This document shows positions 1 through 24,477 of a stretch of DNA of 24,477 bases, piece by piece. A program made the position numbers and the translations under genes. Position 1 is the first letter of the stretch. Each line of letters opens with the position of its first letter. The stretch is taken from IMG/VR virus record IMGVR_UViG_3300050025_000051, positions 1-24,477 of that record; one strand, given 5' to 3'. The notes beneath the pieces were generated by a model. That model saw only the letters and a program-made list of their open reading frames with translations, ran no database searches and was not told the origin of the DNA. The DNA comes from a virus.

Positions 1-236
1 GGAACTATGGCAACTATGAACCATCTCTCGTTTGTGGCCGAAGCAACCAGAACCACCGTATCTTTTTCAAGTCCAACCAGAAATCCTCCCCCACGGCCGG
101 CATAAGGGTGTGGAACTGGACAACTAAATGGTTTCTCTGCTTGCTTGTCATAAAACTGACAATCTACGTGATCCTGTGCTACTTTGGTTACTATGGCAAA
201 TCTCAAAGTCCGGCCCAGAGGAAGTACGCGATCCAT
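1..236 (-). CDS. Baseplate spike OB-fold protein, N-terminal part (runs off window)
   Basis: The reading frame starts at ATG 236-234, overlaps the hub stop codon in a TAATG junction, and stays open to base 1, giving about 78 residues. The protein begins MDRVLPLGRTLRFAIVTKV and continues with the motif CPVPHPYAGRGGGFLVGLEK, then a strand-rich DTVVLVASATNERWFIVAIVP. This alternation of short beta strands with a Gly-rich turn looks like the N-terminal OB fold of central spike proteins (T4 gp5 and P2 gpV families). In those systems the OB domain sits under the hub and carries the membrane-piercing needle. Its position directly after the hub gene matches the gp27/gp5 or gpD/gpV order. The stop-start overlap suggests translational coupling with the hub. 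The C-terminal part is outside the window, so a lysozyme or beta-helix needle cannot be checked. The OB assignment rests on motif recognition, not a search. Confidence 0.72.
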   Translation of the reverse strand, partial: MDRVLPLGRTLRFAIVTKVAQDHVDCQFYDKQAEKPFSCPVPHPYAGRGGGFLVGLEKDTVVLVASATNERWFIVAIV

Positions 237-3200
237 TATTTGCCTCCTGCTGTTGTCGGAATAAGAACGACTTCAATGGCGTAAGTTGGTTTGCCGGCAG
301 TTATGTTCCAAGTTTCCTCAGATGGTAGAAGCAAAATATCATCCAAAGCAACTGGCGGGGATATATTGACTGGATCCACGGCAGGCATCATTGCTTCGCT
401 AACTGCCGGAAAGCTTGGCTGCGATAATGGACACAAACTGCCATCCTCGAGGGCCATAGACGGAGACATCAACCAATGCCTAACCGCTCCCATACGATCT
501 CTCACCGTATCACCTGTAAGAGACTCGCCATCAGTAAACCCACGAACTTGTACTTGATATCCTGTTGGTTGTTTGTTGATCTTGAGTAGGGCATTCTTGA
601 GCTGTACGAGGTTAAAACTGCCGTAACTGTTGGACAAAAACTCAGACTGTATATCTTCTTGGTCTTGACTTACTTCATTCGTCGGCGGTTTTTGCTCCCA
701 GGCCACAACTCCCGCCACTGTACCGTTGACTGCTGTTCTGCGATTAGTTAAGAAGCTGTTTGCCTGATTTTGCCCCTTAATCAGCACCTTGCCTATTACA
801 TCCAAAGGCGTCGGTATGTACTCGCCCAAAGGATGTCCCATTTCGAGCGTTAACGTTGTGGTGAAGGTGCCGGCGTAAGCAAAACTGTGCGACACCCCAG
901 TAACGTAGTACAGCATATCACGAAAGTTCACATACACTACATCACCAAGCTGATAGTACTCATTTCCCACCAAGGTCACGGTACCAGTCACGGCCTTCTT
1001 TCGCGCTTGGGTTAGAAGCATCTGAGCATAGGGAGCGCATTGAGATTCGGCATTGTGTAAGAATGGGCGATCAAAAGTCTGCGCTGGCCTATATCCGTAC
1101 TGCCGCCACAAATCAAAGTCGGTCGCTCCGGCCCAATACAAAGGCATGTCGGGAACAAGAAACCCAGGACCACTACTTGCCCAGTTTTGTGACCCTTGAA
1201 CATCCACTCGACAGTTTACGTTCTGATCTGACTCCGTGAACTGCGAAGACAATACTTGGTCATCGTTTATAATGTATCGAGCAGCAGAGCCAGGGCCCAA
1301 CGTATCATTGAAGTCATCCTCTACCAAATCACCAAACACTGACAGTATCTTCTCTCTGCTGCCGGCTTTGAGCATATTACCTTGGAGCTGAGACCCATCG
1401 ATGCCCCCCTGATTTCCTGGCTTATTCTGTATTTTGGACAAGGTATCGTTAAGCTTTTGGCCACTACTAACCAAACCAGCCAACTTATTCACTTCGGCCA
1501 AACGAGCAGAGTTGATATTGGTGCTTACTGCCGGATCATTTAGTATCTGTAACTCTTTGATGGCTGCGTTTATGGTGTCTTGATCAGAAGCGTCGTCTAT
1601 ATTCCCGCCAGACAACTTGGCCAACGCAATACGAGCAGATATTAGATTTTGGGCGTTAGAGGTTAGATTACTTGCCGTAATGGTAGACACGGAATAAGGA
1701 ATGCGGCTACTAACGCTGATGCTTGCCTTCTCATCCACAACCACCAGATAACTTGCCTCCGATTGAACCGCTCCCATGTCGCTGCTCCACCCTAACAATA
1801 TCAACTCTATCTGTATTTGTAGCCCTATTGACTCCAGCTCGATTGCCATAGACTTCTGCTGATTTCGGAACAACGCATCTAAGAACTCGGGATATAGTCG
1901 CGTGCCCTTCTGTTGTAGCAGCATCATTTTAAGTAGCAGTGATAAGGGCACTCGATTGTACTTTGGGAATCGCAGTTGTATGTGACCTTGCGAGTCATTG
2001 AAAAACTCGAGATCCAAAGTTTTAGCTACGGCCTCACATATCTCGAGTGGTGTCTTGTACTCACTCTTCCACATATCAGGATTCTTGAGAGCACTTAACA
2101 CATAAGCTTGTACGTCCAGATCTTTGTCGTAGCAATCATCCACTATGAACAGATTAACGTCTGTATTGAACTTACACTTTAACTGTGGACGGAACTGAAG
2201 GAAGCTATTCTTGATTTGAAGCTTGCCTACGTTAAGCTGCGACTCTTCCTTTGTTGGCGCCTCAGTTATGTTCACCAGCATATCGTTGCCGTAGATTCTT
2301 AGTCCTGAGCTTAGTCCTGCCTGTATATTGGACTGGAACTTGGCAACTTCGGTCTGTATTTGCGCATTTAAGCTGTTAACCTGCGCCGTGAGTTGCGTCA
2401 CCAAACTAACACGATCCAGCATACTCTTGTCGTTTATTTTGTTCGCGCCCAACTTACCCACCGAAGTATTTAGCGAATCCAACAAATCCTGCGCTTGGGC
2501 CCACTTACTACGCAGGTCATTTAGAGTGCTCGATGTGTTGTTTATGGTTGATTGATTCTGTATGCGTTGGGCCATCTTCTCGGGCGTCAGGTTGGTAGTC
2601 TTGAATGGTTGAAAGTTGCCCAAAGCTCTGTTAGCCGAGCGAGTTACGTCCATCGAAGTGTGAAAATAATCTTCGGGTGAGTTTGTTCCGCCGCCATTTG
2701 TATAGGTGCCGGTATCTCGTGTGTGCTGAATAAAAGTCTCGTAGCTGTGTGGAAAACCTGTAACCAAGATGCTAATGATGTCTGCTGCGTCCATACTCGC
2801 AAAGGGGTTCTCTACTACTGTTTGGCCCACCTCTCGCATAAGTTGTTGAGAGGCGCTGCCACTGCCATCGAGGGCCGTTCGAAGATTAACGGTCATGGTC
2901 GAAGTTATGATTCCGCTCTTCCACCGATAAACCATTCCGGGTGTGTGCTGAACTACCGGCAGACCCAAAAGCCACGAATAGTCTTGAATCAGATTAGAGT
3001 CCTCAACTACCTGGCCGGCATTAACACCAGTCTTGTTAACCAGCTTGCGATCCACGTTCTCTTGTAGCAACGGTGGATTAGTCGTGGGCAAACCAGTAGC
3101 AGAGTCCACCTTGATATCGTAGGGGGTAATCGGATCTTCCAACACGCCCTGGATTTGATCTAAGCCGGGAGAAGTATTGACGCGAGACATATTGAGCCAC

Positions 3201-4897
3201 TTCAAGTTGCTACTACCCGCTACATTCATTGTGTATCCGCGATCTGGGGCGTAAGTGTCCGTTACTGTCGAAACCAAACCACCAAAAACGTGGGTGCCGG
3301 CGTTGCGCATAAACGAACCACTGCGCATATACCGATACAAGTCTACCGGTATGTTGTAGTCGCTCAGGCCAAATATACGCATCTCTTCTTCTAACACGGC
3401 ATCAGCGGCGTCTTTGGCATCATCCTTGAAAGTACGTACGAAGTTTGAGTTGTTCAGCAAGGCACTAAGCGGCCCCATCAGTTCAGAGTTGCGATAAGTG
3501 TTGCCTCTGAGATATACGTGAATGCCGTCCATAGGTTGAACGATTGACTTGCCCAAATAATGTATGCGTAGATTCTTTCGGGCATAAGTCGTGTCTGGAT
3601 CGTTATTCTGAACAAAGGTGGCATTGGATAGGTCTTCCATCGCATTTACATACTGAGTTAGTAAGCCAAAAATGCTCGATACCAGATTATCCTCGGCCAA
3701 AGTAAGTCGTTGATCAGGTGGCAGGTTATTGAAGACTAAGCGATAGTTGTCAGAGTTAAAGGGCTCAGAATAAGAAGACGTGGTGCCTTGTACTTTGTCT
3801 ACTGCTTGGGCCGTTGGGTTGATTTGGAAGATTATGTCAGATACAGTAGAGGTGTCGAGCATTCCACCGCCCAAGGTCCCACCAAACAGACCGGCAACTC
3901 GATTCCTACGCGCGGTCTGAAGCTGTTGATCCTGCTCTCTGGCCGCTTGAAGTATGGCGGCAGGATCGGAGTTAACTGTATTCGTGGTTACTTCAGCAAA
4001 AGCAGTAGACAACGCTATCTCTAAATCGTCACTGGATACTTTGGTTAGATTATAGGGGTCTTCCATCGAAAACTGAACGCTGCCCAAATCTCCACCGTCG
4101 AGTTTGAGTGCGGTGTTGATATCAGTCACAGTCGTCAGTTCTATTACGCCGGCACCTCGACCAACATTCACTACATCGGCCATATCAGGATCTATCACCC
4201 AGTTCGTATAGGTGGCAGAGTTGAGTTTCTTCTGATTCTGGGCTGCTTTGCGCACTCCCTTTATTGCCGGCACAACCTTAGCATAACTGTCCTTGAGCGC
4301 ATTCAACTGCTTATAGACTTCATCAGTTAGTTCTGCTGAGGCCTGAACGACGAACGCATTATTGATCACACCCACTGCGCTTTGATACCCACTGTCTAAG
4401 TAGTCCGCAATGGCATCTAATCGAGTAGCATCCAACTGGGCATCTTCACTCAGCAACTTGGAGGCTTTGGTTATTGCTTCATAGGCGGCCAACTGAGAGC
4501 ACTTGTTTTGGAATAGAATCTTGGTGGCGCGCAGAAACAACTTCTCGCCCTTGTTCATAAATCGCGTATCATTCTCGTTACGCAAAGTAGAGAACGCCCT
4601 CTTATGTATATAGATCGTGGCATTTGGCTCTTGTGTTAATATCTGCCGTGTCTTGATATCACTTACTGCGCTGACCTGGGAGCCAACAAATGAAGTGCCT
4701 GGTACTGAACTAAAACCCGTTTCAACATACACGTGCTCCAAAGGTGGTTGAGGTGGCATATTTCCAGTTGATGTAAGATTGGTGAAAGCGTTGGAAAGAC
4801 CGCTCGCTATTTTGGAGAAGTCTGAGGTTATCTGCCCCACGAAGTTAGAGAATGAGTTGGGTTGAACATTAACTTCCGAACTAAATACGATCGCCAT
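236..4897 (-). CDS. Large baseplate hub protein (gp27/gpD-like), 1553 aa
   Basis: This very long structural protein is probably the baseplate hub, which adapts the tube to the central spike. Around residues 450-480 a segment reads LGKSIVQPMDGIHVYLRGNT, a pattern seen in hub proteins of large tailed phages. Residues roughly 780-880 are Gln/Asn/Leu-rich and probably helical or coiled coil. The stretch near residues 1250-1365 contains YGYRPAQTFDRP, then GNEYYQLGDVVYVNFRDMLY and VTGVSHSFAYAGTFTTTLTL followed by GHPLGEYIPTPLDVIGK, typical of the C-terminal hub domain of the gp27 and late-control-D families. The last 140 residues look OmpA-like (see findings). ATG 4897 is preceded by AAGGAAGG five bases upstream, which supports this start. 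It follows the 312-residue gene closely and overlaps the OB-fold gene at TAATG. It is far longer than T4 gp27 (about 390 residues), so it may combine several baseplate roles. The hub role is likely; the domain borders are approximate. Confidence 0.72.
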   Translation of the reverse strand: MAIVFSSEVNVQPNSFSNFVGQITSDFSKIASGLSNAFTNLTSTGNMPPQPPLEHVYVETGFSSVPGTSFVGSQVSAVSDIKTRQILTQEPNATIYIHKRAFSTLRNENDTRFMNKGEKLFLRATKILFQNKCSQLAAYEAITKASKLLSEDAQLDATRLDAIADYLDSGYQSAVGVINNAFVVQASAELTDEVYKQLNALKDSYAKVVPAIKGVRKAAQNQKKLNSATYTNWVIDPDMADVVNVGRGAGVIELTTVTDINTALKLDGGDLGSVQFSMEDPYNLTKVSSDDLEIALSTAFAEVTTNTVNSDPAAILQAAREQDQQLQTARRNRVAGLFGGTLGGGMLDTSTVSDIIFQINPTAQAVDKVQGTTSSYSEPFNSDNYRLVFNNLPPDQRLTLAEDNLVSSIFGLLTQYVNAMEDLSNATFVQNNDPDTTYARKNLRIHYLGKSIVQPMDGIHVYLRGNTYRNSELMGPLSALLNNSNFVRTFKDDAKDAADAVLEEEMRIFGLSDYNIPVDLYRYMRSGSFMRNAGTHVFGGLVSTVTDTYAPDRGYTMNVAGSSNLKWLNMSRVNTSPGLDQIQGVLEDPITPYDIKVDSATGLPTTNPPLLQENVDRKLVNKTGVNAGQVVEDSNLIQDYSWLLGLPVVQHTPGMVYRWKSGIITSTMTVNLRTALDGSGSASQQLMREVGQTVVENPFASMDAADIISILVTGFPHSYETFIQHTRDTGTYTNGGGTNSPEDYFHTSMDVTRSANRALGNFQPFKTTNLTPEKMAQRIQNQSTINNTSSTLNDLRSKWAQAQDLLDSLNTSVGKLGANKINDKSMLDRVSLVTQLTAQVNSLNAQIQTEVAKFQSNIQAGLSSGLRIYGNDMLVNITEAPTKEESQLNVGKLQIKNSFLQFRPQLKCKFNTDVNLFIVDDCYDKDLDVQAYVLSALKNPDMWKSEYKTPLEICEAVAKTLDLEFFNDSQGHIQLRFPKYNRVPLSLLLKMMLLQQKGTRLYPEFLDALFRNQQKSMAIELESIGLQIQIELILLGWSSDMGAVQSEASYLVVVDEKASISVSSRIPYSVSTITASNLTSNAQNLISARIALAKLSGGNIDDASDQDTINAAIKELQILNDPAVSTNINSARLAEVNKLAGLVSSGQKLNDTLSKIQNKPGNQGGIDGSQLQGNMLKAGSREKILSVFGDLVEDDFNDTLGPGSAARYIINDDQVLSSQFTESDQNVNCRVDVQGSQNWASSGPGFLVPDMPLYWAGATDFDLWRQYGYRPAQTFDRPFLHNAESQCAPYAQMLLTQARKKAVTGTVTLVGNEYYQLGDVVYVNFRDMLYYVTGVSHSFAYAGTFTTTLTLEMGHPLGEYIPTPLDVIGKVLIKGQNQANSFLTNRRTAVNGTVAGVVAWEQKPPTNEVSQDQEDIQSEFLSNSYGSFNLVQLKNALLKINKQPTGYQVQVRGFTDGESLTGDTVRDRMGAVRHWLMSPSMALEDGSLCPLSQPSFPAVSEAMMPAVDPVNISPPVALDDILLLPSEETWNITAGKPTYAIEVVLIPTTAGGK

Positions 4898-4908: not shown

Positions 4909-5847
4909 TTAAGTCAGCGTTCCTTTTGTGAGTATAGACTGTTGCTCCGTTGATGTAAAGCCTAAGTCGGCCGCAAAACTACTACCTGGCGACCCGAACG
5001 TTAATGGCGCTGAATCTGGGTGGAAGTTTTGTGGGGCTTGCTGTGATAACCCTATGGCCTGACGTATTGAGTTGCCTATACCGTTAATCAAGCTGCCGGC
5101 AAGGTCATTAGCAAGCGGCTCTTTTGACCAAGCCAAGTAGTTCTGTCGCTTGCCTCGTTGTTCGGTACTCATAAAGGTCATCGTGTAGTCAAACAATCCA
5201 GTCTTGTCGGCACTTTCTGTTACGCTGAATGCTGTGAAGAAACCCTTATATTCGATGCCCTGGTAGAACATCAAAACACTGGTAGCCAACGCAGCTAAAC
5301 TCGGCCGCAGTATAAAGTTGCGGCTTCTTAGTTGTTTGGCCAGATCAGACAAAGAAGTACTTATGCTATTCGAGTTGAGATCTTGACTGGTTAAAACGTT
5401 GGTCATCTCCCCTGTTTGAGAAGCGGCCACTAAATCAAAGGCGCGATTCTCAGCCATATAGATGTCGTGTAGAACGTTGATGCCTTGAATACTTGCCGAA
5501 CCCGTAGTGCCTCTTATGTCGAGCTGTGTAAGATTCGCGCCCCAGTACTGAATCACATAGCCGCCCTTGGTACGATTATAGTTGATCTGCTTTGATTCAT
5601 TCACGGTTAGGCTTTGCGGATTTATATACATCTGAACCGACGAGCCATTAGGGAGCCGCCAAGTGATAACCTCTGCGTCTCGATTGTTAAGCCCCTCCAT
5701 GCCTCGATAGTTTGGCTGGGGATTAAGCGCATTGGCCGTGTCTTGTATGGCTTGAGCGGATTTGGCGAGAAAGTCTGAACCTCCTGCTGCCTTAACTGCC
5801 CCAGAGTCGCCAGATCCGACTGCCTTTAGTAAGTTAAGTGCGCCCAT
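4909..5847 (-). CDS. Baseplate/tail-tube-end structural protein, 312 aa
   Basis: This is a phage structural protein encoded between the tape measure and the hub. Residues about 60-115 contain VITWRLPNGSSVQMYINPQS and, further on, GGYVIQYWGANLTQLDIRG followed by TTGSASIQG. This YWG...TGS arrangement recurs in tube-like baseplate proteins of contractile phages, including those that cap the tube or join it to the hub. Near residues 195-235 is a second strand-rich block (MFYQGIEYKGFFTAFSVTES) ending in a conserved-looking FDYTMTFMST. The C-terminal 70 residues are Gly/Ser/Gln-rich and probably flexible. ATG 5847 overlaps the tape measure stop in TAATG and has GGAGGGGG just upstream, so both coupling and a strong ribosome site support it. 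By position it could be a counterpart of T4 gp48 or gp54 or of P2 gpU/gpX-like joining proteins. The exact role is inference. Confidence 0.55.
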   Translation of the reverse strand: MGALNLLKAVGSGDSGAVKAAGGSDFLAKSAQAIQDTANALNPQPNYRGMEGLNNRDAEVITWRLPNGSSVQMYINPQSLTVNESKQINYNRTKGGYVIQYWGANLTQLDIRGTTGSASIQGINVLHDIYMAENRAFDLVAASQTGEMTNVLTSQDLNSNSISTSLSDLAKQLRSRNFILRPSLAALATSVLMFYQGIEYKGFFTAFSVTESADKTGLFDYTMTFMSTEQRGKRQNYLAWSKEPLANDLAGSLINGIGNSIRQAIGLSQQAPQNFHPDSAPLTFGSPGSSFAADLGFTSTEQQSILTKGTLT

Positions 5848-8153
5848 TATCCCCCTCCGCTATTCGTGCTTAGAGTAACCACATGCGTTATCTGCTCCGT
5901 TACCTTCTGCTTCAAAAAATCACCATCCAACGTCAGCCTTATGTTTAGTGGCACCTCTTGCGTCTGCTGTTTTTGCTGCGTGCCCTTATTTATTTCCTGC
6001 TGCTGAACTTTTGAACGAGTTGTGGCTTGGACCGCCTGATTTTGCTCCGCCGCAAGATTTGGCTTTGCGTTCCTGCCGGCCGCATTTACTTCACTCTTTG
6101 GCATTTCGTTTTGATGGCCTCGCTTTTCATTTAAAGCAGAAACCACCGAGTCGCGCCTGACATTGGGGGCCTTTCCGACCAGACTCTCCCCCGCGTATCC
6201 TTTGGGCGCATCTTTCCTGTTTCCTACGCCGTTATCAAGTAAGTCCCTGGCTGTTTTTCCCGTTACGCCCGTCTCCCCTGGCTTAGTTTTCTGGTTCGCT
6301 ATGTCCCGTGCCGCTTTACCGCTCCTGTTGATGTCTTCGAGTGTTGTGCTGGACGTGGATGCCTGCTGTGGTTCTGATGGCTTTCCAGATATTACATTCT
6401 TGACGTGCCTCCCAATCTTTTTAAAATCTCCTCCGTCTACTTCACCTTTTCTAATCGTTCCTTCTATATCTTTCGTAATCGTATCCAACTTTTGTATTAG
6501 TCCCGGGCCCATCACCTTCTCTATCGCCTTAACTATCCTCGTGCCGCTCGTTATTGTTGCTTGAACACTAGCCTGATTAAACTTTGTCTGAACCGCAGTG
6601 TCCTTGTCGGCAGTCTCTCCGCCTTGTTTCAGAAGGTTGCTAAAAGCCTTCTGACTGTCTGATCCTGCCTGCATACCATTTTTGCCCGCGTCCTGTAACG
6701 CTTTCAGTATCTTGTTCTGTACGGCCGGATCAGAAGACATTCCCATCTTTTCCAACAACCCGCGCTGAACCATAAACTGCGACTGTAAAGCGGGGTCTTT
6801 TATGGCATCTTGGCGTGTGATTACTTTCCCGCCGCCAAACTGTTCGAGCGTCTTGGTTATGCTGTCGACGTATTTCTTCGTTCCCTTGCCTGTTTTATCT
6901 TCAAGCGCTTCTTCCATTTCCAAACCAGCACCGAGAGCTCCGCCTGGCCCCTTTCCTACACCGCCCTGAATACCAATGAAAGCCCTCTGCGCAAAGCTCA
7001 TCTTCTCTATGCCCTGAGTAAAAGTTTGAAGTAACTCAGGCGCCAGTCCTTTGCGTCCCTGCTCCAGACTCTTAGAGAACATATTGAACAACGGCGTGAC
7101 TGAGTTAATCGAACCGCCCCACATTTTTAGGGCTTCTGCGCTTTGAAAGATCGTCTTGGACACTACCGACATACTCAAGCCAGAACCCTCTGCTGCTTCG
7201 CTTATTCGGCCAAACGCGTCCATCGAGCCCTTTACGTCCTCGCCCAACTCCTGATATGCCTTGCCCATCATTCCCGTTATCTCTTTGGTTCCCATCCCAG
7301 TAGCATTAGCCAACAACATCGCAGCATTTACGGGAGTTATTTCCGCTCCAAGTCCCTGATACTTTCTGGCCAACGCACCTAACGCGCCGCCCTGTTTCTC
7401 ATATCCAGCCGTAGTGGTCGTATTTGTAACGCCCATAACCTCAGATAGGTCTTTGGTGGCCCCTGTTATTTCACCCAAATCTCGCCGCGTTACTTGCTGT
7501 ATTCCCACTATCTGCTTGGCGAAACCATCTCCACTTTTCTCAGCGCTACCAAGATCTTTTCCTACGTCCTCTCCAAACTCTCTGAACGCTATCCTTGACT
7601 GGCGCATTATCTTGTCTATACCCAGGAAATTCTCTTGGTATGCGTTGTATAGGTCTTTTACCGGACCCAACTGATCATACGCCTTCTTGGCCAGCTGCGT
7701 TATTGCTATTGGTGCCCCTGCCTTGCCTAACACCTCACCGACCTCAAGCGCTTTCCCGGCCAACTCTTTGAACATACCCTGACTCAATCCCAGCTTTTTC
7801 TCCAATGAACCAAATATAGAACTGGTTAGAATGCTTCCTGCTGCGTCGCCTCCTGCTTGGGCCACTTTGGTTATCACAGACATAATCTTTCCGGATACGT
7901 CTGCCAAAACACCCATTTTGCCCACCTCAGCCGTAACAGATTTTATCACTTCAGGCTGCTTTGGATCTACAAGGATTGCGCCAGTACCAGTTGTTTTTTC
8001 AAGACCATTCCAGGACTCTTTAAGTTTGTCCAGATCCACTTTAGACTTGCGCAACGACTCTGATAACTCGTTCATTGATTGCGTGGCTGCCTTCAAGTCC
8101 GCAGTTGATGGTGCCGGGTTATCTGTATTTGGCTTGACTGGATCTTCTGCCAT
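5847..8153 (-). CDS. Tail tape measure protein, 768 aa
   Basis: This is the expected tape measure: a long, Ala/Gly/Lys/Gln-rich, mostly helical protein encoded right after the tail assembly chaperone pair and before the baseplate genes. The N-terminal 100 residues are charged and look like coiled coil (STADLKAATQSMNELSESLR). A Gly/Ala-rich, partly hydrophobic stretch follows at about 95-160 (SGKIMSVITKVAQAGGDAAG). Long helical repeats run to about 600, and a low-complexity Gln/Lys/Asn/Thr tail follows. The last 35 residues turn beta-like (VPLNIRLTLDGDFLKQKVTE). With the usual 0.15 nm per residue, 768 residues would set a tail of about 115 nm; that is inference from the rule, not a measurement. 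I see no lysozyme or peptidase motif in it. ATG 8153 has GGAG five to six bases upstream and lies 12 bases after the chaperone stop. The assignment rests mainly on context and composition. Confidence 0.8.
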   Translation of the reverse strand: MAEDPVKPNTDNPAPSTADLKAATQSMNELSESLRKSKVDLDKLKESWNGLEKTTGTGAILVDPKQPEVIKSVTAEVGKMGVLADVSGKIMSVITKVAQAGGDAAGSILTSSIFGSLEKKLGLSQGMFKELAGKALEVGEVLGKAGAPIAITQLAKKAYDQLGPVKDLYNAYQENFLGIDKIMRQSRIAFREFGEDVGKDLGSAEKSGDGFAKQIVGIQQVTRRDLGEITGATKDLSEVMGVTNTTTTAGYEKQGGALGALARKYQGLGAEITPVNAAMLLANATGMGTKEITGMMGKAYQELGEDVKGSMDAFGRISEAAEGSGLSMSVVSKTIFQSAEALKMWGGSINSVTPLFNMFSKSLEQGRKGLAPELLQTFTQGIEKMSFAQRAFIGIQGGVGKGPGGALGAGLEMEEALEDKTGKGTKKYVDSITKTLEQFGGGKVITRQDAIKDPALQSQFMVQRGLLEKMGMSSDPAVQNKILKALQDAGKNGMQAGSDSQKAFSNLLKQGGETADKDTAVQTKFNQASVQATITSGTRIVKAIEKVMGPGLIQKLDTITKDIEGTIRKGEVDGGDFKKIGRHVKNVISGKPSEPQQASTSSTTLEDINRSGKAARDIANQKTKPGETGVTGKTARDLLDNGVGNRKDAPKGYAGESLVGKAPNVRRDSVVSALNEKRGHQNEMPKSEVNAAGRNAKPNLAAEQNQAVQATTRSKVQQQEINKGTQQKQQTQEVPLNIRLTLDGDFLKQKVTEQITHVVTLSTNSGGG

Positions 8154-8165
8154 TTAAGCTCCGAC

Positions 8166-9088
8166 TTACTTACTTGAACTGTCTTTCATATTCTTCAAGA
8201 CGTCACTTGGATTTACGGTAACGGTCTCTACTTTTCCGTCTATCTTTCCCAGCTCCGCATCACGCCCGAAAACGCTCTTGATTGTATTTTCGAAGGACGC
8301 ATCTCCTACCGTTGCCTTTCCGTCGCGCTTTTCTTTTATCTTGCCTACCGCTTGTGGCTCTATAAAACTTGCGTGATACTCGACGAAATCCCTACGCGTC
8401 TCAAAGTCTTCCTGCTGATCTTCCTGGTCATTGAAGAAATACCACAACCACTGCGAATTTGAAATATCCGCAAACATCTCGTGGTCTACAGGCACTCCCC
8501 ACATTTTACAGAGTTTCCATCGGAGTCTGTGCCAGGGCTCCTCGACTATTTTTTTAGATTGTCTGCCGCTACCAACTTATCCGCTTCAGTAGAGAGTTTG
8601 TCATACTCGGCAAACAACCGCTCTATCACTTTGAGCTGCATGTTGTCAATCAGGTCGACTCTCTTGTCTATAACCGACGCATATTCCATCTCGGTTGGCA
8701 GATCTTCAAGCTTAATCCCGTCGATACTCCTAAGAGCAAAAGCCAAGGTACAAGTTCTGATGTCGAACGTATTAGCCGTTTCTTTCTTGCCGAGCTCCTT
8801 GATCAGTGTGTTGTATTCTTTGTGTGTCAAAGTACTTAGCTCAAACTTATGCCCAACCACTTCTACGATCTGAGCTGTTCGACCCATAAACAGCACATCT
8901 TCCATCTTCTTCTTGTCCCCTTCACTTAATGTACTCTGCTTGGGGACTGGAACTTGCGCGACTTCAACTGCCGGCGTTCCTTCAAATGCTGACAGATCTT
9001 CTACAACCAACGACTCTATTTTCTTTGGCGTTGGCTCCGATTGAATAGTGGGATTCTTACCCATCGACGAATGAGTTAGTGCGGCCAT
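8166..9088 (-). CDS. Tail assembly chaperone GT fusion, made by -1 frameshift (307 aa)
   Basis: This is the predicted long product of the chaperone locus. Ribosomes start at ATG 9088, read 180 codons, slip back one base on A-AAA-AAA (8555-8549) just before the TAG at 8548-8546, and continue for 127 codons to the TAA at 8168-8166. The -1 frame reads IVEEPWHRLRWKLCK straight into MWGVPVDHEMFAD with no stop between, so the apparent ATG at 8504 is internal. No good Shine-Dalgarno site lies close to that ATG. In lambda gpG/gpGT and many myophages, the T part binds the tube subunit while the G part binds the tape measure. The Trp-rich segment with QWLWYFFNDQEDQQEDFETR resembles such T domains. The gene lies immediately upstream of the tape measure, as in almost all long-tailed phages. 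The frameshift follows established biology but is not shown experimentally here. Confidence 0.8.
8491..8541 (-). promoter_or_regulatory. Possible frameshift-stimulating hairpin or pseudoknot
   Basis: Seven bases after the slip site the coding strand has GGAG (8541-8538), which can pair with CTCC (8525-8522) across a 12-base loop. Inside that loop GGCAC (8533-8529) is exactly complementary to GTGCC (8495-8491) downstream. Together these would form an H-type pseudoknot. The spacing fits known -1 stimulators. The stems are short (4 and 5 bp), the second loop is long, and the folding was done by eye. Confidence 0.35.
8546..9088 (-). CDS. Tail assembly chaperone G, unshifted product (180 aa)
   Basis: This is the main product of the chaperone locus, ending at TAG 8548-8546. 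The first 65 residues are polar and Pro/Glu-rich, probably disordered. From about 65 onwards the protein is helical and charged (LTHKEYNTLIKELGKKE, MQLKVIERLFAEYDKL), a style typical of G-type tail chaperones, which are not part of the mature virion and keep the tape measure soluble during assembly. ATG 9088 has AAGGAG at 9100-9095 with a six-base spacer. This favours it over a second in-frame ATG eight codons later. The gene follows the tube gene with a 62-base gap. Its last codons, CTA AAA AAA, form the slip site that makes the longer fusion. The family assignment comes from position, size and the frameshift signature. Confidence 0.8.
   Translation of the reverse strand: MAALTHSSMGKNPTIQSEPTPKKIESLVVEDLSAFEGTPAVEVAQVPVPKQSTLSEGDKKKMEDVLFMGRTAQIVEVVGHKFELSTLTHKEYNTLIKELGKKETANTFDIRTCTLAFALRSIDGIKLEDLPTEMEYASVIDKRVDLIDNMQLKVIERLFAEYDKLSTEADKLVAADNLKK
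8549..8555 (-). promoter_or_regulatory. Programmed -1 ribosomal frameshift slip site A-AAA-AAA
   Basis: Seven A residues on the coding strand sit in the register A AAA AAA, directly followed by the zero-frame TAG stop. Both tRNA-Lys anticodons can re-pair after a one-base backward slip. The shifted frame is open into the downstream 112-codon frame. This is the classic position and heptamer for the G/GT frameshift of tail assembly chaperones. Confidence 0.78.
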
Positions 9089-9150: not shown

Positions 9151-9804
9151 TTATAGTCCGAGGCCGCTAAACACTGAGTTCCACAGACCACTCGCATCCA
9201 TAGCACCGAGACGTTTGCCGTGATTGACACTATCTTCGATGCCTGTTGCGTCTGTTTGGGCCTGAATGCCGAGAGCGTTAACTGGAATGCCCGGAGTGAC
9301 TGGTGCTACAAGATTCGCCGTCTCTGCCCATACTGTCGCCGTTTCTGTGATCAGGTAGTTGTCAGCCGTGTAAGGTGTCGAATAAGCCTGAAACCAACAG
9401 TTCTTGTATACCATTACAACTGCGCCACTGATGTTGGGCGCGTTTGACCCTGCTGCCGGCAAAGATGAAGAGGATACGTCATAAATCTCTATATCGAACG
9501 GCATTCTCTGGGCCGCGATAAACCTGAAACCTCTCGAAAATGCCTCGGGTAGTCGCAACTGATCGAAAACCAACCGATTAATGGTGAGATCAATCATCGT
9601 GGGCGCCATTGGAACTATCTCTATAACGCCATCTGTACCTATCTCATGAACGCGCATCAAAGGACGATTCTGATTAACCGTCAAGTTCTGAAGCGCTCCG
9701 ACAGGGTGATTATTTATTTTAACTATGATCTGAGTAGACAACCCAGAAGCAGTACGACCAAGATCAAGGTTTGTACCTGTGTTAGGATAAGTTACTGATG
9801 CCAT
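9151..9804 (-). CDS. Tail tube protein, 217 aa
   Basis: This is the probable inner tail tube subunit, which stacks in rings to form the DNA channel inside the sheath. After a short Ser/Thr-rich start it shows beta-rich blocks: QIIVKINNHPVGALQNLTVN, then RPLMRVHEIGTDGVIEIVPM and MIDLTINRLVFDQLRLPEAF. The pattern of a strand, a RVHEIGTDG loop and then a -DLT-NR- strand is typical of contractile-tail tube proteins (T4 gp19-like). The FDIEIYDVSS and VVMVYKNCWFQAYS segments continue the sheet. The C-terminal 50 residues are less ordered. ATG 9804 has a perfect AGGAGG six bases upstream, the best ribosome site in the window, which fits the need for many copies. The gene lies after the sheath, separated from it only by the homing endonuclease gene. 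The function is supported by position and fold pattern. Confidence 0.8.
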   Translation of the reverse strand: MASVTYPNTGTNLDLGRTASGLSTQIIVKINNHPVGALQNLTVNQNRPLMRVHEIGTDGVIEIVPMAPTMIDLTINRLVFDQLRLPEAFSRGFRFIAAQRMPFDIEIYDVSSSSLPAAGSNAPNISGAVVMVYKNCWFQAYSTPYTADNYLITETATVWAETANLVAPVTPGIPVNALGIQAQTDATGIEDSVNHGKRLGAMDASGLWNSVFSGLGL

Positions 9805-9844: not shown

Positions 9845-10642
9845 CTACCTGACTGGTTTTGGGGGTCTTGCTATTGATGGACTATCTGCGTAGTATTGTT
9901 TAAGCCGCTCCTTGTTTTCCATATATATACCATACTTGCGATCCAATCTGGTTTCCGGCGTGGATTCTTCATATAGCCAATCTAATATGTCCTCAACATA
10001 GGTTCCACAATATTCAACACGGTATGTATTGGCGTCTTTAACCTTGGAAACGTTTGTGTTTCCAGAATGCCTAGATCCTTCTTTGATATGCTTAGATATC
10101 CACCTGATTATGTCTTCGGACCCTGAACAAATCGACAGCCTTGGTTTGCGGTCCGACTTCTTCCACCCTATTGACCCGTCTCCATCTATATAGCCTCTTA
10201 TGTAGTGTCTAATGAGATTCGATGGTATCTTGCTGGGCGGCGACAATATTCTGGATTTGGCTGGTACTATATTGAAGTTGACGCGAAGATCATCTGCTAT
10301 TTTCCGCGACCCGAGCGATAATCTGGCATATTCTATCATCTTGCCGCTTCTTAGGCGACTTCTTCGATATAGACTTGCCTCTCTTTGTGCCAGATTACTC
10401 AATTTAACAAGGTGCTCTGAGTCTTTGGCGTTGAGCTCTATAGCGACATACTTATTAGTCTTTCCCACAATCCATCCGTCAGCCGCTATAAACCCCGCCC
10501 AATAGCAACTTGCCTCACTAAATCCATCAAACACGTCATTATTGCCAACCGCCCTGCGTATATTCTTCTTAACTCCCGCCTTTGCCAATCGCTCTTGAAT
10601 GGTCCAATGCGATATGCCGTATATACCAGCTATCTCCTTCAT
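9845..10642 (-). CDS. LAGLIDADG homing endonuclease with N-terminal HTH, free-standing
   Basis: This is a selfish DNA endonuclease inserted between the sheath and tube genes. Two LAGLIDADG-type motifs are clear: WAGFIAADGW at residues 48-57 with Asp55, and IRGYIDGDGSI at 148-158 with Asp155, the two expected metal-binding acidic residues. Two motifs in one chain imply a monomeric enzyme with a pseudo-symmetric active site that cuts a long asymmetric target. The first 25 residues (MKEIAGIYGISHWTIQERLA) are the last two helices of a helix-turn-helix. The helix before them, DIVALYLEGKT, is encoded upstream of this ATG, so the true start is uncertain. ATG 10642 does have GAGGG seven bases upstream. 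The flanking sheath and tube genes look intact, so this is a free-standing homing gene, not an intron or intein. It ends with TAG, 40 bases before the tube ATG. Confidence 0.88.
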   Translation of the reverse strand: MKEIAGIYGISHWTIQERLAKAGVKKNIRRAVGNNDVFDGFSEASCYWAGFIAADGWIVGKTNKYVAIELNAKDSEHLVKLSNLAQREASLYRRSRLRSGKMIEYARLSLGSRKIADDLRVNFNIVPAKSRILSPPSKIPSNLIRHYIRGYIDGDGSIGWKKSDRKPRLSICSGSEDIIRWISKHIKEGSRHSGNTNVSKVKDANTYRVEYCGTYVEDILDWLYEESTPETRLDRKYGIYMENKERLKQYYADSPSIARPPKPVR

Positions 10643-19462: not shown

Positions 19463-21007
19463 TTAGTTATATCTGATTACGGGAGTGCCAAGATACATAT
19501 AGCTGCCATCGTTTCCGGTAACGGCTATACGCAACATCAGCTCTTCGCCAAGTTTTTTTATTCTGCGCTGATCAAGGTTGCTGGTTATCGAACTTTCCAG
19601 ATACCCGCCGCCTACAAGTTTGGCTCCCGTCTGACCCGCAAAGTTCCAATCCGCAAAAGTCGTCCACCCTCCTGCTGCCCCACGCGGATCTTTGACGTAA
19701 ATTGTAAAATCTATCGTGTAGGTGTTTTGCGCTTGAATAAAAACAGCAGGCGAAATTACAATCGATCCTTGCGGCAAAGTAACTGGAAAATAGACATACT
19801 TGGTTGCCCCATTTGAAATAAACGGATCGGAAAGCGGCGAACCTGAGTCAATCGCCAAACCGTTATATACTATGTCGCTTCCTCTCGCAAAGAATGCTCC
19901 TGGGATCACGAGGTGCTTGGTACCACACGGAAAAGATGCGAGACCGAGATTAATATAAATCGCCTCGACTTGAGAGATTTGGGGTTCATAGGCTTCATCA
20001 CCAAGCCACGGCCTAATAATACAACTAACGTCAGGGGCATCTCCAAAATCGGCCATTCCTTGAAGTCCGTTGCCGTAAAGTCCATTACGCTCGAAAGTCA
20101 TGTCCATAAGGAACGTGGCGGTCTCAAAGTTGGTATTCCCTACCCGTACCATCTTGACTGACGGAGCCCCACCGACAAGACCTGAACCAGAAATGAAGTT
20201 ATCGCAAATCGAAAGACCTATGACTTGCTTTTGATAACCATCGCCGTACATACCGGTCTCGACGTATATGTTCCCAAGAACGTTTGCCTCAAAGTAGTTG
20301 CCCTGAATCGAAGTTGAATCAGCCAGGTACGAATAGGTAGGAACATCGGCTTCGCTCAATACAACTCCATAGCCTGCGTTTCCTTCGATGATACAGTTTT
20401 CGATCCTAATGCTAATGCCCCAAAGATCTACGCCATTCCCGGGACTATGCGCTATTTCTGAATTAGTTATGGTTACTGCGTTTATTTGTGCTGCTGCTGA
20501 AGCCTTGCCGTAAACTCCACCACCAACGCAGCCATCAATAAGGCAATGATCTACCGTAAGGCAAGTAGCGTGATGGTCTGAAATTCCGTCACCAATGTGA
20601 ATGCCATAGCCATATACGCAGATACAGACATTGTGTATTAACGTATGTGTCTGCGTAATATACAGAATGCCATCGCCGAGTCCGTCAATTCGTAAGTCCT
20701 CAATAACTGGACCACCCATAACGAGCTGCCAGTCATATCCTGGAGTGCTACTTATTGTAATCGATGGGCCTGTTCCGACATTGTTCAAAATAGTTTTGCC
20801 CCAACCTACGCCTACGATCTTGACGGCATTAGTTATAGTGAATCCCGTGTGTTTGTACGTTCCTGCTGGTATCAAAACCGTTCCGTAGGCCGCAGCAGTA
20901 ATGGCAGCCTGAATAGCTGCCGTGTCGTCATGTACGCCGTCACCAACTGCACCATAGTCTTTTACATTCAGGGTGCTGTTGATTCCGGTGCTAATAAAGG
21001 TTGTCAT
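19463..21007 (-). CDS. Tailspike with pectate-lyase-3-type beta-helix, 514 aa, no anchor domain
   Basis: This is a compact tailspike, probably a capsule or O-antigen depolymerase or binder. After only about 12 residues it enters the Pectate_lyase_3 start motif LNVKDYGAVGDGVHDDTAAI and then PAGTYKHTGF. Parallel beta-helix rungs follow to about residue 330 (LRIDGLGDGILYITQ, LIDGCVGGGVYGKA, NSEIAHSPGNGVDLWG, IIEGNAGYGVVLS). From about 350 to the end there is a beta-sandwich-like C-terminal domain with YVYFPVTLPQGSIVISPAVF and LGEELMLRIAVTGNDGSYMY, reminiscent of the end of the 1548-residue fibre. It lacks any N-terminal virion-binding module, unlike both neighbours, so it may dock onto one of them. 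ATG 21007 has AGGA nine bases upstream and lies 14 bases after the preceding stop. Members of this family are often glycan lyases or hydrolases; the substrate cannot be read from the sequence. Confidence 0.75.
   Translation of the reverse strand: MTTFISTGINSTLNVKDYGAVGDGVHDDTAAIQAAITAAAYGTVLIPAGTYKHTGFTITNAVKIVGVGWGKTILNNVGTGPSITISSTPGYDWQLVMGGPVIEDLRIDGLGDGILYITQTHTLIHNVCICVYGYGIHIGDGISDHHATCLTVDHCLIDGCVGGGVYGKASAAAQINAVTITNSEIAHSPGNGVDLWGISIRIENCIIEGNAGYGVVLSEADVPTYSYLADSTSIQGNYFEANVLGNIYVETGMYGDGYQKQVIGLSICDNFISGSGLVGGAPSVKMVRVGNTNFETATFLMDMTFERNGLYGNGLQGMADFGDAPDVSCIIRPWLGDEAYEPQISQVEAIYINLGLASFPCGTKHLVIPGAFFARGSDIVYNGLAIDSGSPLSDPFISNGATKYVYFPVTLPQGSIVISPAVFIQAQNTYTIDFTIYVKDPRGAAGGWTTFADWNFAGQTGAKLVGGGYLESSITSNLDQRRIKKLGEELMLRIAVTGNDGSYMYLGTPVIRYN
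20922..20974 (-). repeat. Diverged 53-base repeat, copy in 514-aa spike gene
   Basis: This segment encodes the start of the beta-helix (LNVKDYGAVGDG...DDTAA). It aligns without gaps to 22664-22716 in the upstream spike gene, with about 12 mismatches by eye. Many are third-position changes, so it looks like diverged homology under protein constraint. Confidence 0.7.
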
Positions 21008-21021
21008 GTTGAACCGTCCTA

Positions 21022-24000
21022 TTATGGTATAGTTGAGGCAAGAAGGTAATACAATGCCCCATTTATGATTATTGCTACCGTTCTATTTGCTGTGGGAGTG
21101 GTGCTGCCAACTATTCCAGTACCTTCCGTTTGTACTCCCAATACTGTATTCCCGGGGGACATATCGTACGAGTACACCTGCAAAGTATCAGCAATGCCGG
21201 CCGCAGGAGCGGTTGCATTTGCCAGGCCAAGAACCCCTCTGGCAGTTGAATCCGCGTGTGTCATTCCGCCGATCAGGAAGTTTTTGTTGGCGTCTGCTCT
21301 AAACGCCAACTCGCTGTTAACTTCGGCCGTAAGATCCGGAGCAGTATAAACATAGTCCGCACTTATTCTCCAGCTTGTATTGCTTCCCGTGCTGTCGTAT
21401 AGGTCAATAATGCTACCGTTTATCGTAGCCTTAGGTAAATTTGTAACGCCGCTTCTATTGTTGGGAAACTGACCAAGTATGCGACTAAGATCGGCAATAC
21501 CAAGATCGCCCGTATCAACACCTGGTTCTACGCTTATTTCGCCAGATGATAGCCCCCATAGAGTAAGATTCTGTGTGTTGATTGAGTCCGTACAAAAAAG
21601 ATGCCCAAAACGTTGAAGGTCAGCGCCATTTACTTGCGCCATATAAACGTTGTCCAGATCTAAAAAGATCGCGTCTGCATCGACCGGCTCCGCATTTCGT
21701 CCAGAAAGCGTGCCTCCGATAATCTGAATTGCTGAGCGAATAGATGGGTCTGTGCTGCCTACGACGCCCACACGAATTGCGCCTGTAACTATCTTATACG
21801 TATCCCCAGGCGAAATAGGACCACTGAAAGCCGCTACTGTAAGCGTGTGGGTGCTGGGATTAAAGCCAGTACATCTTCGCGCATGTCCTGCGTTGGTTCC
21901 TGTCTTCATTATCACCCAAAACCCAACCCAATAATCAGTCGTGCTTTCTACACGTGAGGCGTCTACCAAACTGGTTGTGGATCCAGACGAAGCTGCGCCG
22001 GTTGGGAAAGCTACCGATGGATTGTTTTCGAGCCAGCAGTTTAGTAACGTTGCGGAACTGCCTCTGCCTATATCCATCGCGCCGATCACATTGCTTTCAA
22101 TCACAGTATCTACAAAGAAGTGGTTCAAGTTGCTGCCAGAAAGAATTGCGCCCCATCCAAGACCATCTTGCATTAAGCACCGAAGCACATGGCCCGTGGT
22201 ATTGTCTCCACTGGGCCCAAAATACATCGACGAGACTTTCGACGCAAGGCACATACAGTCTTCCAGCGACACCTCTTGAAAAGAATCGAGATATATCGAG
22301 TTGTTAAAACCAGTAATGGACAGGTTACGAAAATGAGACATACCGATATTCACCAGATGAAGTCCGTCTCCGCTATCGTCTGCTCCAACAAGCACGAGGT
22401 TTTCCATCAAGCAACCCTCGATTAATGGTTCAACGCCGGGATCTGCCGCGATAAACAAATGCGCGCCGGGGATGGTTGGCGCATGAACAAGGCGAGATGT
22501 ATTGGTGTAGTTGGCAAGATTGATTCCGCCAACGCCAACAATATGCACGCCATTATTTAGAATAAGCGTGCCGCAAATCTTATAGTACGAAGATCCCGCC
22601 GGCACTGTAATCTCGCCCTGGCCTTGCGCGGTGACAAAATCTATTGCGCGTTGAAAAGCAGCAGTATCATCAGTTATTCCATCACCAACAGCGCCGTAGT
22701 CTTTTACGTTTAGGGTCGCCACGTAATTGTGCATCTGTGTATTGGTGACGTAATCATTCGAAAATTGGCTCAGCTGCTTGCCCAAATTAGCTATGATGAG
22801 GCGCCGATCAGTAAATGCGCCACTGAATGCTAGTGATGGCGTCTGCGTTGTGCCGTATTCCAAAATCGTTGCGCATCCTACTGAATCACCGTATCCATCG
22901 CTTTGTAGGCCGGCATAACTAAAACCGCTCTGACTGCCGCTCTTGATGATTAGATTGCCATATCGATTCAGCAGCACCATTCCAGACGCCGCAGCAAAGT
23001 CGGCTGATATTAGTGTTATGGTTTGCGCTGGTACTTCAAGTCTTCTACCGGCCACATAAGCAACTCCACCACTAAAACTGATGGTTGATGCTGTGTTTGA
23101 TAAGTATTCAAGGCCGCTAACTACTCCATTGTTGTATAGATCGTTTATGACTTGCTCTACGGCGCCTTGATTAAATGAGTCGTAAGTGTCGTTGGTTGAA
23201 GTGGTGCCTAACTGTCTCTTGTCTGTAAGGAAGCCCAAAGCGTAAGTGCCCAAGTTACCGCCTAAAAGTACAGAGCATACGTAAAGCCGTGAAGTAGTGC
23301 CGGCAAAAGCGTAGGAAGTAACGGTTTGCCCAACAGTACCAGTAGCAACACTTCCAGTAACTTCTACATCAGCTATTCCCAGGCCATTATAAGACGCAAC
23401 CTGAAGCCTGCCTATAAAAGGTGATGATAGGTCTGCTGGTATAATAGTTGCTGGTCCTTTGTTGCCGGCCTCTGATATTGTGAGGCTACCCGAACCATCT
23501 ACTCCCCACACGACAGCAACAACGGGAAAGTACTCATTCACCGAGACTATGCTGAGACCTGAAATGGCTTGGTAATCGAGTCTTATGGCCGTACTAACTT
23601 TCCCCAAACCCGTCGAATCAAAATCTACGAAAACATCATACACTTGGCCATCCGAAGTCTGACCAAATGCGGCTGAGTTCTTTACCACTTCCAGATTAAA
23701 AGTTCCTGATGGTAGAGTTGCGTTAAGTGTTCCTGCTTCCGTTATGTAGTAGGTTCCATTTGCGCTGGAAGTTTGATGGTTGGTCACATTACAGAGCGAA
23801 CCAACAGGAAGAGCAGGTGAAGTTGGTATGGCACTGATTCCTGACTGATTACAAACTACGCCAAAGTCAGACACCAAACTGCCGGCCAACATAGCACCAC
23901 AATCAGAGGGCGCCGAAACAGTAACCGAACTCAAGCCCAACACGCCACAAGCCGAACCTGAAACCAAAATCGTATAGTTGCTTCCTGGTATGTTGTGAGC

Positions 24001-24477
24001 CAGTACCAGTTTTCCACCAACAGCATAAGCAGCTATGGGATAATGGGAATCTCTTGCTGCCGTATTGATTGTAGCGACTAAACCTTCAACGCTATAAACG
24101 GGTATGGTAAGCGTAACAGTAAGCGGCCCTAAGCCCAAACCGCCAGCCTGAATGACCAGTGTGTTTGTTGAGTTGGCTATTATTCCACCAAAGTCAATAG
24201 GGCCGCCAACTATTCGAGCTACATTGGGCCGCATCACTTGTATTATATTGGGCGTATTGTCGGCGGTGTAGTTTGTCTGGTAAATCGTCGCGGCCAGGGT
24301 AGTATTTCGTTGGGCCGATTCGATGATGCCGGTTGCGTGAGATTCGGTTACGTGAGCTGCTACTTTTTGAGTGCTTGCTGTATTGGCCGCTGCTATGTCG
24401 CTATTAAGATCTGCTATCAACTCGGTATTTGAGCTTTCATCTGTGGTTATTTGGGTGCTTATTGCGTTAAGAGCATC
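21022..24477 (-). CDS. Tailspike with adaptor module and pectate-lyase-3 beta-helix, N-terminus cut by window
   Basis: At least 1151 residues are present. The frame is open to the window edge (…QITTDESSNTELIADLN…), so a TTG at 24420 is not the true start. Near the N-terminus is helical, coiled-coil-like sequence. At about 24160-23930 is VEGLVATINTAARDSHYPIA and AVGGKLVLAHN, and at about 23170-22800 is GVVSGLEYLS, GGVAYVAGRRLEV and FTDRRLIIANL, both related to parts of the 1548-residue fibre. LNVKDYGAVGDGITDDTAAF at about 22715-22655 opens the Pectate_lyase_3 helix. At about 22010-21790 a small inserted domain (DYWVGFWVIMKTGTNAGHAR) interrupts it. The C-terminal 90 residues (ARGVLGLANATAPAAGIAD, then TLQVYSYDMSPGNTVLGVQ and IIINGALYYLLASTI) look like a trimerising end domain common in phage fibres. 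It is likely a tailspike; any enzyme activity is inferred from the fold. Confidence 0.75.
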   Translation of the reverse strand, partial: DALNAISTQITTDESSNTELIADLNSDIAAANTASTQKVAAHVTESHATGIIESAQRNTTLAATIYQTNYTADNTPNIIQVMRPNVARIVGGPIDFGGIIANSTNTLVIQAGGLGLGPLTVTLTIPVYSVEGLVATINTAARDSHYPIAAYAVGGKLVLAHNIPGSNYTILVSGSACGVLGLSSVTVSAPSDCGAMLAGSLVSDFGVVCNQSGISAIPTSPALPVGSLCNVTNHQTSSANGTYYITEAGTLNATLPSGTFNLEVVKNSAAFGQTSDGQVYDVFVDFDSTGLGKVSTAIRLDYQAISGLSIVSVNEYFPVVAVVWGVDGSGSLTISEAGNKGPATIIPADLSSPFIGRLQVASYNGLGIADVEVTGSVATGTVGQTVTSYAFAGTTSRLYVCSVLLGGNLGTYALGFLTDKRQLGTTSTNDTYDSFNQGAVEQVINDLYNNGVVSGLEYLSNTASTISFSGGVAYVAGRRLEVPAQTITLISADFAAASGMVLLNRYGNLIIKSGSQSGFSYAGLQSDGYGDSVGCATILEYGTTQTPSLAFSGAFTDRRLIIANLGKQLSQFSNDYVTNTQMHNYVATLNVKDYGAVGDGITDDTAAFQRAIDFVTAQGQGEITVPAGSSYYKICGTLILNNGVHIVGVGGINLANYTNTSRLVHAPTIPGAHLFIAADPGVEPLIEGCLMENLVLVGADDSGDGLHLVNIGMSHFRNLSITGFNNSIYLDSFQEVSLEDCMCLASKVSSMYFGPSGDNTTGHVLRCLMQDGLGWGAILSGSNLNHFFVDTVIESNVIGAMDIGRGSSATLLNCWLENNPSVAFPTGAASSGSTTSLVDASRVESTTDYWVGFWVIMKTGTNAGHARRCTGFNPSTHTLTVAAFSGPISPGDTYKIVTGAIRVGVVGSTDPSIRSAIQIIGGTLSGRNAEPVDADAIFLDLDNVYMAQVNGADLQRFGHLFCTDSINTQNLTLWGLSSGEISVEPGVDTGDLGIADLSRILGQFPNNRSGVTNLPKATINGSIIDLYDSTGSNTSWRISADYVYTAPDLTAEVNSELAFRADANKNFLIGGMTHADSTARGVLGLANATAPAAGIADTLQVYSYDMSPGNTVLGVQTEGTGIVGSTTPTANRTVAIIINGALYYLLASTIP
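22664..22716 (-). repeat. Diverged 53-base repeat, copy in first spike gene
   Basis: This is the partner of 20922-20974. It marks the boundary between adaptor and beta-helix in the first spike gene, a place where domain swapping between tailspikes often occurs. Confidence 0.7.

Follow-up and report, generated by a model that had tools for sequence, protein, structure and literature searches.

Many phages are known to use programmed -1 frameshifting in their tail chaperone genes (PMC5009743; PMC10885494), a phenomenon that the initial annotation of this DNA had called established for lambda and other long-tailed phages, and 6-7% frameshifting has been measured in two HK97-type genes (PMC3711429). 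For gp14A of corynephage phi16 (PMC5506516), a -1 frameshift in tail assembly has been described together with a predicted pseudoknot of the H type; it differs from the present locus in being described as a single-genome prediction with the slippery sequence GGGGGAA, an internal Shine-Dalgarno and no comparative evidence. The lambda G/GT frameshift (Levin, Hendrix and Casjens 1993; Xu, Hendrix and Duda 2004, reviewed in PMC5009743) is the known kind to which the locus described here belongs. As in lambda, the chaperone gene is flanked by tail tube and tape measure genes, the -1 shift is placed close to its 3' end, and a short product would be accompanied by a rarer fused form. No sequence similarity between lambda G/GT and the window, the 24,477-nucleotide IMG/VR fragment (IMGVR_UViG_3300050025_000051) that was analysed, was detectable in these searches. 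The lambda slippery site is G_GGA_AAG, and no conserved downstream RNA structure is known to be established for lambda. A lineage-wide RNA stimulator is apparently undescribed; no report of one in a tail chaperone gene was found in the open-access literature.

The nearest cultured relative is Bacillus phage G (JN638751), which was the only match in the phage collection and is homologous to the window in both frames, although at only 24-26% identity. In phage G the tail assembly chaperone annotation covers gp181 as well as gp182, the latter entered as a join of two pieces, and the tape measure gene follows. The phage G site, A_AAA_AAC followed by TAG, occupies the same place as the window heptamer. 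In contrast, the phage G hairpin GCGAC/GTCGT is unrelated in sequence to the stem of the window (S1), is offset by one base and lacks the second helix (S2). For the window itself, comparison of sequences makes it highly probable that a programmed -1 frameshift with a downstream RNA stimulator generates a G-T fusion. The features concerned are as follows.

9151-9804, minus strand: probable tail tube protein, the gene directly upstream (PHROG 985 virion structural protein, E 1.2e-9; adjoins the sheath gene)
8546-9088, minus strand: 0-frame ORF of 180 codons, resembling a G-like tail assembly chaperone and ending NLKK-TAG (sequence, PHROG, similarity to phage G gp181)
8549-8555, minus strand: slippery heptamer A_AAA_AAA, in phase (sequence; canonical in-phase heptamer in 46/46 loci)
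8542-8548, minus strand: spacer TAGTCGA, 7 nt, containing the 0-frame stop (sequence)
8536-8541, minus strand: 5' arm of S1, GGAGCC (S1 ranks highest among helices scanned without bias, with synonymous resampling as the null)
8522-8527, minus strand: 3' arm of S1, GACTCC, with one C.A mismatch in the window (GGCTCC in most relatives)
8529-8533, minus strand: predicted 5' arm of S2, GGCAC, within the S1 loop (helix scan, synonymous constraint)
8491-8495, minus strand: predicted 3' arm of S2, GTGCC, in Val-Pro codons (GTG bias for Val)
8166-8549, minus strand: -1 frame of 127 codons, starting IVEEPWHRLRWKLCKMWG... (IVEEPWHRLRWKLCK...), which would form the T-like part of the fusion (homology with the extension in phage G gp182)
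5847-8153, minus strand: 768-aa protein in the tape measure position (position only)

The minus strand reads CTA AAA AAA TAG at 8558-8546, exactly the A-AAA-AAA run before a stop that had been noted initially, and the TAG (8548-8546) abuts the 3' side of the heptamer. Stepping back one base gives ATA GTC GAG GAG CCC TGG ..., a frame open without interruption to 8166, and the fusion thus comprises the 307 residues originally predicted because the two frames contribute 180 and 127 codons. The gene contains no canonical in-frame heptamer other than that at 8555-8549. Sampling of the gene's own codons puts the probability that one would arise in phase within the window's overlap at approximately 0.04.

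Relatives were gathered from IMG/VR contigs of up to 340 kb in three ways: with the PWHRLRW peptide, with the upstream domain alone and with the downstream domain after removal of the junction. The upstream-domain scan recovered only contigs already found through the peptide, and the downstream-domain scan recovered 48 loci; when the window, phage G and four more loci were added to these, 46 distinct sequences were obtained. Since the first pattern scan had preset some stem bases, the constraint statistics given below use the protein-pattern loci. Scanning of genome contigs returned no relatives and single-protein scans almost none. The fused proteins are highly diverged, with a median end branch of 0.54 changes per column in the tree.

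In all 46 loci, which are related and whose counts do not represent independent events, the second frame overlaps the first with a -1 offset, and each locus has a canonical X_XXY_YYZ heptamer in phase, where chance would give 2.4 loci with one. A_AAA_AAC (22 loci) and A_AAA_AAA (14) dominate, followed by T_TTA_AAA (4), T_TTT_TTA (2), A_AAA_AAG (2), A_AAA_AAT (1) and T_TTA_AAG (1). Wherever A_AAA_AAN has been lost another canonical heptamer takes its place: in the tree, T-type heptamers are found in two clades that are separate from each other, slipperiness being kept through the change, and no relative found retains both frames with the heptamer destroyed. On this comparative evidence the relatives make the frameshift near certain, and a -1 shift joining two tail-chaperone frames, the original proposal, stands as the best reading of the window.

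The initial annotation had overlooked the conserved downstream RNA stem and the predicted pseudoknot. With index 0 assigned to window position 8541, the base that precedes the first codon (Glu) of EPWHRLRW, S1 consists in 19 close sequences of 6 bp between bases 0-5 (GGAGCC) and 14-19 (GGCTCC). When synonymous codons were resampled with each contig's own usage, 67.6 ± 3.4 S1 pairs were expected in these sequences against the 110 of 114 observed, and S1 came out on top in a blind scan of all possible helices, followed by S2 as the best-ranked helix independent of it. Seven of eight synonymously fixed sites lie inside S1 or S2. The stem Leu codon is CTC in 17 of the 19 close sequences, although CTC accounts for 8% of Leu codons, and free variation of the codons for Leu and Pro at positions that belong to neither stem serves as an internal control. 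Protein constraint alone, as an explanation for the extreme conservation of EPWHRLRWKLC, was ruled out by the synonymous resampling; the 6-bp stem is kept far beyond the needs of the protein.

S1 is still the top helix in the 27 distant sequences, with z of 6.5-7.3 for 5-6 bp against a null maximum of about 2.2. Over the 46 loci 91% of S1 positions are paired, and this falls to 20-52% when one arm is displaced against the other by 1-4 bases. Compensatory pairs occur in separate parts of the tree, namely GGAGTC/GACTCC (L093), GGGGTC/GACTCC (L076), GGATCC/GGATTC (L091) and TGATTC/GAATTA (L097), and the stem is degraded in L067, L069, L073, L074 and L100. In two further loci, L081 and L083, an unrelated longer hairpin starting 4-6 nt after the heptamer, at about position 1945 of each locus, replaces the 6-bp stem. 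A scan of viral-contig DNA for heptamer-spaced S1 returned only contigs already known to carry the chaperone gene. Rfam 15 holds no matching family: the window region gave only a sub-threshold chance match to a snoRNA, and eight relatives gave nothing.

The stem of -1 stimulators usually lies 5-9 nt after the heptamer. Here the spacer measures 7 nt in 39 of the 46 loci, including the window with its once-mismatched stem, 10 nt in five and 13 nt in two. The seven loci with the 10-13 nt spacers, which are long, all carry T-type heptamers, and stimulators at 12-15 nt are known (PMC5009743). At a predicted -5.7 kcal/mol, the S1 hairpin of the window is weaker than that of most relatives (about -11 kcal/mol). 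When the window region was folded as a single sequence, the result was no better than that for shuffles (z -0.5). With the C.A mismatch and the weaker hairpin, the efficiency in the window may therefore be lower or lean more on S2.

The second helix would pair bases 8-12 (GGCAC) with 46-50 (GTGCC) over 5 bp. In the 19 close sequences 94 of 95 S2 pairs can form, against 78.6 ± 1.5 under synonymous resampling. S2 holds a fixed register in 22 loci only, the window included, all with TGGCA in the loop. S1 and S2 together would probably make an H-type pseudoknot in these 22 loci. Its stems would have 6 bp (S1) and 5 bp (S2) with 1 nt at their junction, and its loops 1 and 3 would measure 2 and 26 nt, respectively.

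If S2 did not form, the frameshift would still be real, with the simple hairpin S1 as its stimulator and another cause behind the GTG and CAC codon bias. This reading appears unlikely, yet it is the strongest of the alternatives: S2 shows no two-sided compensatory change at a fixed position, and in the distant relatives a helix between the loop and downstream sequence lies weakly above expectation (313 against 274.8 ± 12.7). Against it, GTG encodes the S2 Val in 18 of the 19 close sequences, GTG making up 16% of Val codons, and CAC is preferred to CAT, whereas synonymous sites nearby that are unpaired do vary. In addition, within the 22 TGGCA loci 99% of S2 positions are able to pair, a share that does not exceed 59% once the arms are shifted, and L063 carries a different possible 6-bp second helix, GTCAAC/GTTGAC, again between the S1 loop and downstream sequence. 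Comparative evidence was obtained for both helices, for the predicted S2 as a strong synonymous constraint in the 22 loci.

Two separate genes, the second initiating independently at ATG 8504 or GTG 8495 by coupling or from the GAGGAG near 8541, are very improbable. The in-frame ATG 8504 is present in the window with GAGGAG upstream, and GTG 8495 is conserved in close relatives. However, the window sequence offers ATG 8504 no Shine-Dalgarno-like sequence at a usable distance, the GAGGAG approximately 30 nt upstream being part of S1, and the purine-rich arm is replaced by GCTCCC, TGATTC and GTCGCC in L083, L097 and L081, respectively. ATG 8504 is missing in many relatives and sits within the long loop of the predicted pseudoknot, which agrees with its early designation as a mis-start. 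Similarly, GTG 8495 is GTT in L021/L057 and is lost in distant relatives. In 39 of the 46 loci the second frame contains no ATG, GTG or TTG before the conserved Trp of the [RK]-x-[RK]-W motif, so that the motif is reached only by the shift. Independent initiation of the second frame was rejected. Slippage of RNA polymerase, rather than of the ribosome, on the seven consecutive A's of the window is the least probable source of the fused frame and was also rejected, since in over half of the relatives the run is shorter or is interrupted (A_AAA_AAC, A_AAA_AAG, T_TTA_AAA) but keeps the codon phase and the canonical X_XXY_YYZ heptamer, and since the conserved downstream RNA stem is spaced as a stimulator of ribosomal slippage would be.

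Under ribosomal frameshifting, ribosomes translating the G-like chaperone would arrive at CTA AAA AAA TAG, where most would stop and release the 180-residue protein. The RNA stem 7 nt downstream, probably as part of an H-type pseudoknot in this clade, would hold up a minority, in which both tRNAs could slip back one base on A_AAA_AAA and reading would continue in the -1 frame to yield the 307-residue G-T fusion. Dozens of distant relatives likewise retain a folded RNA directly downstream, and this RNA very likely makes the ribosome slip; for the window, slippage by a small share of ribosomes is probable, while its efficiency, its stimulation by the RNA and the roles of the two products are inferences. 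By analogy with lambda, the short form may bind the tape measure protein and the rarer fusion may recruit tail tube subunits. We consider it likely that a large, uncultured lineage of long-tailed phages carries a conserved, undescribed RNA element, formed by the 6-bp stem and in some members by an H-type pseudoknot, that sets the ratio of short to fused product and has been kept while the heptamer was exchanged. In many large phages from the environment, gene callers will report the chaperone gene as two and place the start of its second half wrongly, and the conserved element could help to find and correctly annotate such genes. Because heptamer, spacer and stem differ naturally among the relatives, these also offer a ready series on which to test how slippage of bacterial ribosomes is brought about.

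The chaperone gene lies between the tail tube gene and the tape measure position, the G/GT-type gene order. The product of 9151-9804 is probably the tail tube, as judged from gene order, the sheath gene (PHROG 2839) preceding it. The 768-aa protein has no PHROG or Pfam match above cut-off and is named a tape measure protein by its position and by analogy with the annotated phage G tape measure gene in the same place. Protein searches with the tape measure and sheath proteins of the window found no cultured phage. The first frame resembles a tail assembly chaperone through weak profile matches together with gene order: PHROG 2992/2792 are matched at E of about 1e-3 in the window, PHROG tail assembly chaperones at E down to 4.5e-7 in relatives, and Pfam gave no match. 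Its predicted model (mean pLDDT 66) matches phage chaperone models in BFVD, including that of phage G gp181; Foldseek comparison with solved structures, including the HK97 chaperone 2ob9 in the PDB, was not significant.

Elsewhere in the window, a LAGLIDADG homing endonuclease ORF (9845-10642, minus strand; PF14528, E 1.3e-9) lies between the sheath and tail tube genes, which adjoin without this insert in the relative L002. A 1553-aa protein encoded at 236-4897 (minus strand) adjoins a tube-initiator-like gene and has no Pfam match; its C-terminal VRGFTDGESLTGDTVRDRMGAVRHWL resembles, by eye, an OmpA-like motif. The neighbouring tail spike genes at 19463-21007 and 21022-24477 (minus strand) share a common pectate-lyase-type start (LNVKDYGAVGDG.DDTAA; PF12708) and are probably a duplication.
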